A stretch of DNA of 64,000 bases, from NCBI GenBank assembly GCA_003223935.1, contig QHXQ01000022.1:1-64000 (forward strand). Direction: 5' to 3'. The position numbers and the translations under genes were made by a program. Source of the stretch: Acidobacteriota bacterium (GTDB lineage Bacteria; Acidobacteriota; Blastocatellia; Pyrinomonadales; Pyrinomonadaceae). The notes under the pieces are model-generated. The model did no database searches. It saw nothing but the letters and a program-made list of their open reading frames with translations, and was not told the origin of the DNA. This document shows positions 2,529 through 9,969 of the stretch, piece after piece (the stretch's first letter is position 1; the number at the start of each line of letters is the position of its first letter).

Positions 2529-2927
2529 ATGCCTCTCGAAGCACTTGGCATGGTCGAGACCAAAGGGTTCGTCGGCGCGGTCGAGGCCGCCGACGCGATG
2601 GTTAAGGCCGCGAACGTTCAACTGATCGGCAAAGAGTACATCGGCGCTGGTTACGTGACGATCTTCGTGCGCGGCGACGTGGGCGCGGTCAAGGCCGCGA
2701 CCGACGCGGGCGCAGCCGCCGCCCGCCGCGTCGGCGAACTCATTAGCGTCCATGTCATCCCCCGCCCGCACACGGAAGTCGAGCGCGTGCTGCCGCGCAA
2801 CGGGCGCACCGGCTACAGCCCCGACGAGCGCGCCCTGCAAGGCGGCACAGCCGGCCAACTCGGCGAAGGCGAAGGACGCTCGCTTCCAGCCGGTGCGCGG
2901 GAGAACAACAAGGAACGGGCGAAGTGA
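2529..2927 (+). CDS. BMC-H hexameric microcompartment shell protein (first copy)
   Basis: This is a single BMC-domain shell protein whose hexamers tile the facets of a bacterial microcompartment. The BMC fold covers about residues 1-90: [23 protein letters not shown], then the [15 protein letters not shown] turn and [21 protein letters not shown], ending in the [14 protein letters not shown] strand. The remaining 40 residues form a hydrophilic Gly/Arg/Glu-rich tail not needed for the fold. A GAGGA ribosome-binding site lies 8 nt before ATG 2529. It is the first gene of the locus and is followed by a hairpin and the aldehyde dehydrogenase. A second BMC-H at 9646-9969 shares most of the core but lacks this tail. 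Confidence 0.95.
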
Positions 2928-2928
2928 G

Positions 2929-3016
2929 AGAAGGCAGAAGGCAGTAAGCAGCAAAAGCAGTTGGCGCCGCGTTATATTTTTCTGCCTTCTGCCTACTGCT
3001 TACTGCCTTCTGCTTT
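2929..3016. repeat. Intergenic 7-mer hairpin, GCAGAAG/CTTCTGC word
   Basis: It begins 1 nt after the TGA of the BMC-H gene. The left arm contains AAGGCAGAAGGCAGTAAGCAG and the right arm the complementary CTTCTGCC, TACTGCT, TACTGCC, TTCTGCT words, followed by a TTTTT run. This copy is followed by a GGAGGTG ribosome-binding site, so the downstream gene does not start directly at the hairpin. Confidence 0.9.
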
Positions 3017-3030
3017 TTCGGAGGTGTGTC

Positions 3031-4842
<1,812 letters not shown>

Positions 4843-4845
4843 ATG

Positions 4846-4924
4846 CAGAGGTCAGAGGTTAGAGGTTAGAGGTCAGTTGAAAAACTGTTCTTGCTAACCT
4901 CTGATCTCTGACCTCTAACCTCTG
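4846..4924. repeat. Intergenic 7-mer hairpin, AGAGGTT/AACCTCT word
   Basis: It starts 3 nt after the TGA of the aldehyde dehydrogenase and ends 5 nt before the next ATG. The left arm is CAGAGGTCAGAGGTTAGAGG and onward; the right arm is CTAACCTCTGATCTCTGACC and onward. No Shine-Dalgarno sequence separates it from the start codon of the BMC-P gene. Confidence 0.92.
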
Positions 4925-4929
4925 TTCTT

Positions 4930-5262
4930 ATGTTTCTAGGCAAAGTCGTCGGCACAGTCTGGTCCACGAAGAAGTCGCCCGATCTTGAGGGCGTGCGGTT
5001 TCTGCTCGTGCATCCGATTGAATTAGATAAAGAGCCGACGCGCAGCATCGTCGTCGTGGCGGATCGTCTGGGCGCAGGCATCGGCGAAGTCGTCATGTGC
5101 GCTTACGGCAAGGCAGCGCGCACGGCCATCGGCGATCAAGATATGGCGATTGAAGCGGCCGTCATCGGCATCGTGGATCGCGTGGACGTGCAAGACACGC
5201 CCTCGGACGATCTACGCGCCACCGCGCAGGAACTGAGAACAGGCGATAATGGAAGACCGTAG
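4930..5262 (+). CDS. BMC-P pentameric vertex protein (EutN/CcmL family)
   Basis: A 110-residue EutN/CcmL-type protein whose pentamers cap the vertices of the microcompartment shell. The family signature is clear: FLGKVVGTVWSTKK at the start, LEGVRFLLVHPIELD, then VVVADRLGAGIGEVVMCAYGKAAR and EAAVIGIVDRVDV. The last 20 residues are a hydrophilic tail. The start is ATG 4930, the only Met before the fold. It has no ribosome-binding site and sits 5 nt after the right arm of a hairpin, so translation probably depends on coupling or on a leader without SD. It lies between aldehyde dehydrogenase and ACT genes, as expected for shell and cargo genes cotranscribed. Confidence 0.95.
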   Translation: MFLGKVVGTVWSTKKSPDLEGVRFLLVHPIELDKEPTRSIVVVADRLGAGIGEVVMCAYGKAARTAIGDQDMAIEAAVIGIVDRVDVQDTPSDDLRATAQELRTGDNGRP

Positions 5263-5344
5263 TCAGTTTTCAGTTTTCAGTTTTCAGTTTTCAGCCAAGT
5301 CCAAAGCTGATCTCTGAAAACTGAAAACTGAAACTGAAAACTGC
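5263..5344. repeat. Intergenic 7-mer hairpin, CAGTTTT/AAAACTG word
   Basis: It begins directly after the TAG of the BMC-P gene. The left arm holds four to five copies of CAGTTTT; the right arm holds AAAACTG, AAAACTG, AAACTG and AAAACTG. It ends CTGC and then TTT-ATG, so the right arm stops 3 nt before the ATG of the ACT-domain gene. A near copy lies at 60758-60832. Confidence 0.93.
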
Positions 5345-5347
5345 TTT

Positions 5348-5827
5348 ATGGCGAATGAAGAGTTGATCTATCGCATCACGCGTGCGGTGTACGGGCGGCT
5401 GGGCGCGGGCGCAGACGAGCGCGCGGTCGAGCAGTTGGTGACGGACATCTATCGCGCGATTGAGCCGGTGGTGACGACGAACGGCGACAGCGCGAGCACG
5501 ACGGGCAGCGCGAGCGGGGCGCAGGGCGAGCGGACGGCGCGGGGTGCGGGTTCGCCGGAGCGTCTGATCGTGTCGGTCTTTGGTGTGGATCATCCGGGCA
5601 TCGTGGCGGGTGTGGCGCAGATTCTGGCGGAGTCCGAGTGCAGCATCGTGGACATCAATCAGACGGTCGTGCAGGGCAAGTTCGCGATGGTCATCATCGC
5701 TGACATGGCGCGCGCCGGGCGCTCCGTCACCGAACTCAAAGAACGCTTTCGCACGGCCGGCGAACGTCTGGGCGTCCGCATCTACGCCCAACGCGAAGAC
5801 CTCTTCAACGCGATGCACCGGGTTTAG
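5348..5827 (+). CDS. ACT-domain protein with encapsulation-peptide-like N-terminus
   Basis: A 159-residue protein. Residues 72-150 form an ACT domain (VSVFGVDHPGIVAGVAQILA, then DINQTVVQGKFAMVIIAD), a small-molecule-binding regulatory fold. The ACT protein that usually accompanies DUF711 genes is about 90 residues; this one carries about 70 extra N-terminal residues. These comprise an amphipathic helix EELIYRITRAVYGRL, a second predicted helix VEQLVTDIYRAIEPVV, and a Ser/Thr/Gly/Ala linker (46-70). This helix-plus-linker arrangement is what BMC cargo uses to bind the shell lumen, so luminal location is inferred. The ATG directly follows a hairpin with no SD. The ligand is unknown; DUF711 lies two genes downstream. 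Confidence 0.88.
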   Translation: MANEELIYRITRAVYGRLGAGADERAVEQLVTDIYRAIEPVVTTNGDSASTTGSASGAQGERTARGAGSPERLIVSVFGVDHPGIVAGVAQILAESECSIVDINQTVVQGKFAMVIIADMARAGRSVTELKERFRTAGERLGVRIYAQREDLFNAMHRV

Positions 5828-5903
5828 TGGTCAGTGGTCGGTGGTCAGTGATCAGTTACAAACTGCCTGCACTGACCACCGACCACTGACCACCGACCAC
5901 TGC
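5828..5903. repeat. Intergenic 7-mer hairpin, CAGTGGT/ACCACTG word
   Basis: It begins at the TAG of the ACT gene. The left arm is AGTGGTCAGTGGTCGGTGGT and onward, the right arm ACTGACCACCGACCACTGAC and onward, ending CTGC and TTT-ATG. It uses the same word as copies at 2354, 33956 and 60130 and leaves no room for a ribosome-binding site before 5907. Confidence 0.93.
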
Positions 5904-5906
5904 TTT

Positions 5907-6512
5907 ATGGAGCCTGAGATCGCACGACGATGTATGACTTGCGGCGCGGCGGTGCGCGGGCGCGCGCGCTTCTGTCCGCAGTGCGGGCAAGACATGAGCG
6001 AAGCCTCGACGTTGAACCGGCCGGCCTTAGTCGAGGAGCAAACGGGCACGCCGTCGGGGCGGCTGGTGGACGAGGCAGAGCGTGTGGCGCGTGCGCTAAA
6101 CGATAGCATGCCGCCCTTGTCTGCCGACGCAGGCAGCACACAGGCGATCAGCGATCAGAAGCAATTAAACGAGCCGGCCGCGCCCGAACAAGCGCCCGCG
6201 CTGACGACGCAGCCGACGGCACAGACGCAGACGGGCGCAGACGCCACAAACACTCCGCTCGCTGACGCTGCATTGACGAATGACGCAGGCGACGCACGCG
6301 CGCAAGCGGTGTATTCGGCGGCGGCTGCGTCGTCATCGCGTTTGAGCAATGTGCGCGCACGCGCGGGCGAGCGGGTCGGGCGTCTGCGCGAGGCTTCGGT
6401 CGTCGTGTTTGATGAGGCGCATGATGATCCGGCGTTGCGCTTCGTGCTCGTCGCCGCCGCGCTGTTTGTCATCTTCCTGCTGATCCTGCTCTTCAGTTAC
6501 ATCCTTCGTTAA
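5907..6512 (+). CDS. Zinc-ribbon protein with C-terminal membrane anchor
   Basis: A 201-residue protein not assigned to a named family. Residues 9-26 form a zinc ribbon with two CxxC knuckles (CMTCG and CPQCG: Cys9, 12, 23, 26). A long low-complexity, Ala/Thr/Gln-rich region follows (about 40-150), then a basic stretch with SSSRLSNVRARAGERVGRLR. One hydrophobic helix lies at the very C-terminus (FVLVAAALFVIFLLILLF) with two or three residues after it, giving a tail-anchored topology with the ribbon in the cytoplasm. It sits between the ACT and DUF711 genes, which suggests a link between the microcompartment and the membrane; this is inference. The start is ATG 5907, 3 nt after a hairpin arm, with no SD. 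Confidence 0.85.
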   Translation: MEPEIARRCMTCGAAVRGRARFCPQCGQDMSEASTLNRPALVEEQTGTPSGRLVDEAERVARALNDSMPPLSADAGSTQAISDQKQLNEPAAPEQAPALTTQPTAQTQTGADATNTPLADAALTNDAGDARAQAVYSAAAASSSRLSNVRARAGERVGRLREASVVVFDEAHDDPALRFVLVAAALFVIFLLILLFSYILR

Positions 6513-6530: not shown

Positions 6531-7898
6531 ATGGAATACACGCAGGCCGAAATCTTGCAGACCATCAGGATGACCGAGATGGAGCACTTGGACGTGCGCA
6601 CCGTCACGCTTGGCATCTCTCTGCGCGACTGCGCCTCTGAGTCAATCGAGCGCACAGCCGAGCGCGTGCGCGCGAAGATCGAACAGACGGCGGCGCGACT
6701 CGTTGCCACGGTTGACGAGATCGCAGACGAGATCGGCCTGCGGGTGGCGAATAAAAGAATCTCGATCACGCCCGCGTCGCTCGTCGCAGGCGCGGCTCGT
6801 TCGGCGAGCGATTGCGTGCAGCTTGCGCGCGCGATTGATGAGGCGGCGGGCCATGTCGGCGTTGATTTCATCGGCGGCTACTCCGCGCTCGTGCACAAAG
6901 GTTGGACGGATACCGAAAGCATCTTTCTCGATTCGATCCCCGAAGCACTCGCGACAACTAAACGACTCTGTTCGTCTGTCAACGTGGCGACGACACGCGC
7001 GGGCATCAACATGGATGCGGTGCGGCGCGTGGGCGAGTTGATCAAGGAGATGGCAGAACGGACGCGCGAGCAGGGCGGCCTCGCGTGCGCGAAGTTCGTC
7101 TGCTTCGCCAACGCGGTCGAGGACAATCCGTTCATGGCGGGCGCGTTTCACGGCGTGGGCGAGCCGGAAGCGGTCGTCAACGTCGGCGTCTCCGGCCCCG
7201 GCGTCGTCAACCACGCCGTACGCCATGCGCCGCGCGATCTGCCGCTCGATGAGTTGGCAGAGCTGATCAAAAGACTCTCCTTCAAACTCGCGCGCGCAGG
7301 CGAACTCGTCGGGCGCGAAGCCGCGCGCCGGCTCGGCATCCGCTTCGGCATCATCGATCTGTCACTCGCGCCGACGCCCGCGCCCGGCGATTCGGTCGCA
7401 GAGATCATCGAAGGCTTCGGCTTCGAGCGCGCGGGCGCGCCGGGCACGACCGCCGCGTTGGCGCTCTTAACCGACGCAGTGAAGAAGGGCGGCGCGATGG
7501 CTTCGAGCGCGGTCGGCGGCATGAGCGGCGCGTTCATTCCGGTCTCTGAGGACGCAGGCATGATCGAAGCCGCGCGCGTCGGCGCATTGACTTTGGAAAA
7601 ACTCGAAGCGTGGACGAGCGTCTGCTCGGTCGGTCTCGACATGATCGCCGTGCCCGGTTCGACTTCAGCCGAGACCATCGCCGCGATCATCGCCGACGAA
7701 ATGGCCATCGGCGTGATGAACAACAAGACGACCGCCGTGCGCATCATCCCTGCACCGGGCAAAGACGTGGGCGAGCAAGTTGAATTCGGCGGCCTGCTCG
7801 GCACAGCGCCTATCATGCCGGTCAACCGTTTCGCCTGCGCCGACTTCATCCGGCGCGGCGGACGCATCCCCGCGCCGATCCATTCGCTGCGGAATTAG
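6531..7898 (+). CDS. DUF711 (UPF0210, PFL-like) family protein
   Basis: A 455-residue, full-length member of UPF0210/DUF711. Characteristic parts are the N-terminal [20 protein letters not shown], the [13 protein letters not shown] segment, [46 protein letters not shown] and the C-terminal [13 protein letters not shown]. The family is described as having a pyruvate-formate-lyase-like fold, but no glycyl-radical motif (RVxGY type) is visible near the C-terminus, so radical chemistry is not supported. Biochemical function is unknown. It normally pairs with a small ACT protein; here that partner lies two genes upstream inside a BMC locus. It is the only unassigned enzyme-sized protein in the locus and so the best candidate to generate or consume the encapsulated substrate. 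Confidence 0.93.
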
Positions 7899-9645: not shown

Positions 9646-9969
9646 ATGGAAGCACTGGGCATGGTCGAATGTATGGGTCTCGTGGCGATGATCGAGGCGG
9701 CGGACGCGATGGTGAAGGCGGCGAATGTGCATCTGGTCGGCTACGAGCGGATTGATGCGGGGCTGGTGACGGCGATTGTGCGCGGCGAAGTGGCGGCGGT
9801 GCGCGCGGCTGTGGATGCGGGCGCGGCGGCCGGCGCGCGCGTCGGCAAGGTCGTCGCGACGCACGTCATTCCGCGCCCGCACGCGGATGTGGACGAGGCC
9901 ATGCCGGTCTTGCACACAGGCGAGACGACGCGCAAGAAGATCAGCGGCTCGGTGCATACGCGCGATTGA
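9646..9969 (+). CDS. BMC-H hexameric microcompartment shell protein (second copy)
   Basis: A compact 107-residue BMC-H shell protein that forms hexameric facet tiles. It has the full BMC fold: [57 protein letters not shown] and [18 protein letters not shown]. The core closely matches the copy at 2529-2927, but the tail is short ([18 protein letters not shown]). Two BMC-H paralogues usually give different pore chemistry; the residues lining the pore cannot be assigned with confidence here. GAGGAGAG directly before ATG 9646 is a strong ribosome-binding site. It is the last shell gene of the locus and is followed by a perfect 29-bp inverted repeat. Confidence 0.96.

Follow-up and report, generated by a model that had tools for sequence, protein, structure and literature searches.

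The ACT protein of 159 amino acids encoded at 5348..5827 is probably a UPF0237-type ACT domain extended at its N-terminus by a module that targets it to the Acidobacteria-type (ACI) microcompartment. Its gene lies in a cluster on the forward strand of the window, the whole stretch of 64,000 nucleotides that was analysed, in the order BMC-H, aldehyde dehydrogenase, BMC-P, ACT, zinc-ribbon, DUF711, two more genes and a second BMC-H. The first BMC-H hexamer shell protein (2529..2927, PF00936) is followed by a CoA-acylating aldehyde dehydrogenase (AldDH, 3031..4842) with a long C-terminal extension, which scores 581 bits against TIGR02518, under the cut-off of 620. The start of AldDH is the ATG at 3031, and the analyses took 3025-4842, with two further upstream codons. 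An EP-like helix (4483..4533) forms a conserved stretch flanked by variable linkers in this enzyme, and its C-terminus (4720-4806), after the second variable linker, is another conserved element that is recognisable in distant families too. Directly upstream of the ACT gene is a BMC-P (EutN/CcmL) pentamer shell protein (4930..5262, PF03319). Downstream lie a zinc-ribbon protein (5907..6512), a DUF711/UPF0210 protein of the PFL/RNR-like barrel family (6531..7898; PF05167 at 607.7 bits, NF003700 and 2ha9) and, after the two further genes, the second BMC-H hexamer shell protein (9646..9969, PF00936).

The preliminary description had given the ACT protein about 70 extra residues in front of the ACT fold, and this was borne out. 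ACT_6 (PF13740) matches residues 71-145 and the UPF0237-type model NF001220 matches residues 72-159 (5561..5824) over model positions 3-90 of 90, with 94.9 bits against a cut-off of 74, so that about 71 residues stand before the ACT fold. The closest solved relative, 1zpv, is a free-standing protein of 91 amino acids that aligns to residues 70-159 only, and five clostridial ACT proteins adjoining DUF711 align only from about residue 65-74 onward, in keeping with the earlier statement that free-standing partners of DUF711 have about 90 residues. In an AlphaFold2 model of the full protein, for which 38 rows were aligned (the window together with 34 of the 43 acidobacterial and three of the five clostridial relatives), helices are predicted at residues 2-18 and 24-44. 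The first 40 residues have block-mean pLDDT values of 64-71, residues 43-65 fall below 50, and most of the ACT domain exceeds 90. Residues 1-42 (5348..5473), modelled by themselves on an alignment of the window and 32 of 43 relatives, gave helices at 2-18 (5351-5401) and 24-38 (5417-5461) with a mean pLDDT of 90. The helical part spans approximately residues 2-40, and residues 43-70 (5474..5557) form a hypervariable Ser/Thr/Gly/Ala linker; the preliminary description had named a Ser/Thr/Gly linker.

No known domain could be assigned to the two-helix module. When the N-terminus was compared with Pfam, no family recurred in over 4 of the 33 members and no E-value was below 0.03, and a fold search with the module returned nothing under E=1. 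When the module profile was compared with PDB sequences the lowest E-values belonged to designed alpha-repeat proteins, and no single stretch passed. The module was not found elsewhere in the genome of the window, where the next best match had E=0.6, nor on other proteins of the fetched loci, which gave only chance-level matches and the split ACT of L044.

The extension is well conserved. A genome scan recovered 48 loci, 43 of them acidobacterial and matching from residue 1 or 2 to 159, and five of them clostridial and matching from about residue 65-74. The scan patterns took in N-terminal stretches, so the search was rerun with the ACT domain alone. With this query 45 of 119 genomes of the same family matched, 44 in open frames of 145-249 amino acids and one (G088) in a split frame. 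Over the 44 aligned proteins, among which the row of L044 may be partly out of frame, mean column entropy was 0.48 bits over residues 1-20 and 0.72 over residues 27-40, against 2.58 over the linker (41-70); over residues 71-159 it was 0.61. The helices match the ACT domain in conservation. The linker is hypervariable and of varying length. The N-terminal start is kept in nearly all of the 44 proteins, and within the family of the window the module is unusually strongly conserved, its polar residues being near-invariant. Differences at codon positions 1/2/3, measured in 20 of the 43 homologues, each against the window, were 0.167/0.101/0.431 in codons 1-42 and 0.158/0.083/0.480 in the ACT domain. 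Because the two profiles resemble each other, the extension is, judged by its codons, translated and under purifying selection like that of the ACT domain. Between families the sequence drifts: identity to the window over residues 1-42 is 64% in family f6, 24% in f20, 31% in f10 and 14% in f36, and the pattern persists.

The gene content of the locus matches that of the AldDH satellite of an ACI microcompartment, with an optional cassette of BMC-P, ACT and DUF711. In the passages of Sutter et al. 2021 (PMC8217296) that describe the ACI type, the main locus holds a class II aldolase, a BMC-P triplet and BMC-H, and AldDH is consistently on a satellite locus. The genome of the window has such a main locus on another contig (C25, L098), with a PF00596 aldolase, a PF00936 BMC-H and three PF03319 BMC-P genes, and its sole AldDH match at E<=1e-30 falls in the window. 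The arrangement is that of the published satellite, likewise from Acidobacteria, in which AldDH is placed away from the main locus with its class II aldolase and BMC-P triplet; the satellite described here adds an extra BMC-P, the ACT protein and DUF711. Two genes of the main locus contig may be noted in passing. Upstream, L098:7571-8347 encodes a redox repressor (PF06971 and PF02629), which we take to be Rex-like, and L098:11833-12285 encodes a protein of 150 amino acids whose N-terminus is EP-like, whose C-terminus carries a CDHCAMCSSRGF motif and which is without a Pfam match.

Comparison with relatives that have no ACT gene shows where the cassette sits. The AldDH of the window matched in 17 of 18 genomes searched, at one place in 16 and at two partial ones in G024; G108 had no match. 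All 11 ACT-negative AldDH loci examined have BMC-H before AldDH and are without BMC-P, ACT and DUF711 beside it, and a similar zinc-ribbon protein comes after AldDH in five of the six whose whole length was read. At ACT-positive loci the zinc-ribbon gene, after which DUF711 comes, is separated from AldDH by BMC-P and ACT. The possibility of a compartment separate from ACI was rejected, since relatives without ACT share this BMC-H/AldDH satellite locus but lack the cassette. In all 43 related loci BMC-P is the gene immediately before ACT; the zinc-ribbon protein is seen in 41 of the 43, and DUF711 is downstream in 38; of the five loci without it, four end at a contig end. Among the family genomes, 38 of the 45 with ACT have at least four BMC-P copies, vs one of the 74 without it, and 41 of the 42 family genomes (of 119) in which DUF711 was found also carry ACT. 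The fifth locus without DUF711, L033, does not end at a contig end; it has a long ACT, BMC-P and AldDH, with no DUF711 within 2.6 kb downstream. DUF711 was also not found genome-wide in G022, a long-ACT genome whose matching coordinates lead us to infer that it is the source of L033. DUF711 may possibly have been lost there and ACT kept.

Across the phylum the long ACT protein tracks shell genes. Among 396 Acidobacteriota genomes a UPF0237-type ACT was found in 30 at E<=1e-8, and on reading of the loci 28 of these proteins proved to be long, spread over eight families, and two, both from family f28, to be short. Shell proteins were found in all 28 long-ACT genomes, in 26 by PF03319 and in the other two, G174 (98% complete) and G248 (67% complete), by PF00936; BMC-P occurs in 164 of the 396 genomes overall. 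PF00936 was present in all 19 long-ACT genomes tested, the other nine of the 28 resting on BMC-P, and absent from all seven short-ACT genomes tested (the two of f28 and five Clostridia). The terminal extension is thus absent from every non-microcompartment homologue seen (seven short ACT proteins, against 28 long). The association of BMC-P with the long ACT has a Fisher p of 5e-9 by genome and a hypergeometric p of about 5e-5 at the genus level, both of which take no account of common ancestry. The long-ACT group forms one side of a single branch, with full support, on a tree of DUF711 built from 28 chosen rows, from which L042 was left out because its contig ends before DUF711. It looks, on this tree, as if the long ACT was acquired once, not repeatedly, and then retained in genomes with shells, and the association with shells may accordingly reflect one event.

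Linkage within genomes gives a mixed picture. ACT lies beside shell or AldDH genes in families f1, f5, f6, f7 and f20, and DUF711 is on another contig than ACT in f5, f6 and f7 and in one genome of f3 (G167). In f5-f7, then, ACT goes with the organelle genes rather than with DUF711. In f3, f10 and f36, which make up 12 of the 28 long-ACT genomes, no match to the shell or AldDH proteins of the window was found near ACT in the 10 genomes whose surroundings were read (L131, L132, L137 and L139-L145, up to about 8 kb per side); long-ACT genomes of these families carry shell genes elsewhere. ACT adjoins BMC-P in G338, without an AldDH match nearby. No match to the BMC-P of the window was found in f20 and f7 in the stretch read around ACT. 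In f7 the place that BMC-P holds in other families, between AldDH and ACT, is taken by a protein of 428-474 amino acids (L135:8411-9697 and L136:6379-7803); the L136 copy gave no confident Pfam family.

The preliminary description had read the extension as an encapsulation peptide in the standard layout of microcompartment cargo tags, and this claim stands in part. Helix 2 scores 10-12 of 12 on the published paired hydrophobic/hydrophilic signal motif, at the same place, in eight of eight family representatives, and the motif sum over both helices beats shuffled sequences at p<0.05 in seven of the eight (f10, p=0.10). For comparison, the published CutF tail scores 11/12 and CutH 10/12, the AldDH helix of this locus scores 11/12, and the aldolase tail of L098 reaches only 8/12, so the motif test is not exhaustive. 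As any amphipathic helix leans to the motif pattern, the fit of both ACT-protein helices suggests compatibility with a signal sequence, not function. Both helices had been described as amphipathic and both are predicted, but the hydrophobic moment exceeds that of shuffled sequences for helix 2 (p=0.0001) and not for helix 1 (p=0.24). The moment was dropped as a discriminator because the AldDH, aldolase and CutH helices fail it as well. The flexible linker indicated by the entropy of 2.58 bits, the variable length and a pLDDT below 50 agrees, like the motif fit, with the cargo-tag layout, whereas the presence of two helices departs from the single helix of 15-20 residues. As to the encapsulation peptide itself, the linker, the motif fit and the tracking of shell genes (28/28 long proteins; PF00936 in 0/7 short) speak for it, although the module is conserved far above the published Pdu signals within the window's family, was found on ACT proteins only and was not found beside shell genes in three families. 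A passage of PMC12108088 reports that the PduE extension aligns with signals yet does not target. The concave shell face had been proposed earlier as the docking site; encapsulation peptides are placed in the groove between tessellating hexamers, on the convex side, in the relevant part of PMC11157265.

Several known systems resemble the present one in part. The signals of PduD, PduP, PduL, PduM, PduB and CutF have one helix and the ACT module has two; within-family conservation of the module is strong, far above that of the published Pdu signals; and the known signals are on enzymes or structural proteins, whereas this module is carried by a regulator-type domain. PduM and PduB, presented in PMC12108088 as non-enzymatic, structural microcompartment proteins bearing a targeting extension, are like the ACT protein in being non-enzymatic with an extension and unlike it in their structural roles, the portion of that paper describing them mentioning no ACT domain. 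The UPF0237 and UPF0210/DUF711 pair of Streptococcus pneumoniae (1zpv and 2ha9) has the same ACT family and the same partner, usually in adjacent genes; known UPF0237 ACT proteins have about 90 amino acids and no extension, unlike the 159 amino acids with extension here. For the widespread DUF711/UPF0237 pair we know of no function. The terms 'ACT domain', 'DUF' and pfam05167 do not occur in the main text of Sutter et al. 2021 (PMC8217296), and in the portions of the literature covered nothing relevant was found that joins microcompartments or encapsulation peptides with an ACT domain, DUF711, Blastocatell- Acidobacteria or a helical hairpin.

Three other explanations of the extension were weighed. 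The helices could be an oligomerisation or partner-docking domain, binding ACT itself, AldDH or BMC-P, so that contact with the compartment would come through the partner and possibly at the outer face. A unit of about 40 residues with two helices that is well predicted by itself, near-invariant in its polar residues in the window's family and found on ACT proteins only would suit such a role, as would the BMC-P gene that adjoins ACT in each of the 43 family loci and also in G338. However, both helices fit the signal motif, the surroundings of ACT that were read in f20 and f7 contained no match to the BMC-P of the window, and identity to the window falls to 14-31% in f20, f10 and f36 while the pattern stays. 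We consider partner docking possible but rather unlikely. It is quite improbable, in our estimate, that the extension serves to modulate DUF711 or the ACT dimer and is unconnected with the compartment, the co-occurrence being due to shared Acidobacteriota ancestry. The single long-ACT origin on the DUF711 tree, the failure to find ACT beside shell genes in f3, f10 and f36 and the finding of DUF711 in 25 of 25 ACT-bearing genomes tested would all agree with modulation, but shell genes in 28 of 28 long-ACT genomes, against BMC-P in 164 of 396 overall, and the families in which ACT stays with shell or AldDH genes while DUF711 is elsewhere argue against it.

That the extension is disordered or dispensable, left over from a wrongly placed start codon, seems hardly credible. 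The linker is indeed variable and predicted to be disordered, but codons 1-42 are under purifying selection like that of the ACT domain, and nearly all of the 44 proteins keep the N-terminal start. For residues 1-40 this explanation was rejected by the entropy and codon-position tests.

If the extension is a targeting module, as we favour, helices 2-18 and 24-38 would dock onto an enzyme core or the inner shell surface, and residues 43-70 would serve as a flexible tether. The ACT domain would bind a small metabolite and control or assemble with DUF711, as the short homologues presumably do, and this work would now be sited at or inside the organelle. The targeting itself, a luminal position, the ligand and physical contact between ACT and DUF711 are inferred here, and small-molecule sensing is suggested by the ACT fold. 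None of 28 DUF711 sequences carries an N-terminal extension, and DUF711 aligns with 2ha9 over almost its whole length, so that ACT would probably be its carrier if it does enter the organelle. A more ambitious and, we think, unlikely version makes ACT an adaptor whose module would carry the untagged DUF711 piggyback into the ACI organelle under metabolite control, giving the lumen a new activity. In the excerpts concerned, DUF711 shares one barrel superfamily with pyruvate formate-lyase and ribonucleotide reductase (PMC4390871), and ACI is among the microcompartment types without an obvious aldehyde-producing enzyme (PMC8217296, Sutter et al. 2021). Together these make the adaptor attractive, and DUF711 might then possibly supply the missing aldehyde-forming step. 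If an ACT regulator did carry such a signal, a metabolite-responsive component would be present within some microcompartments or on their surface. The DUF711/UPF0237 pair would thereby gain a physiological setting, and the ACI organelle of soil Acidobacteria would seem to have an accessory part.

Two other features of the cluster may be mentioned. The zinc-ribbon protein has a low-complexity middle and a C-terminal hydrophobic segment that, as read from the sequence, is probably membrane-anchoring, and it is retained after AldDH in ACT-positive and in most of the ACT-negative satellite loci read; it could possibly be a membrane anchor or an assembly factor. Four of the spacers in the cluster (2928-3019, 4847-4924, 5263-5333 and 5828-5902) each consist of one long inverted repeat, built from its own short repeated unit, with arms of about 20-29 nucleotides, and similar repeat-like read-through is seen upstream of ACT at other Pyrinomonadaceae loci.
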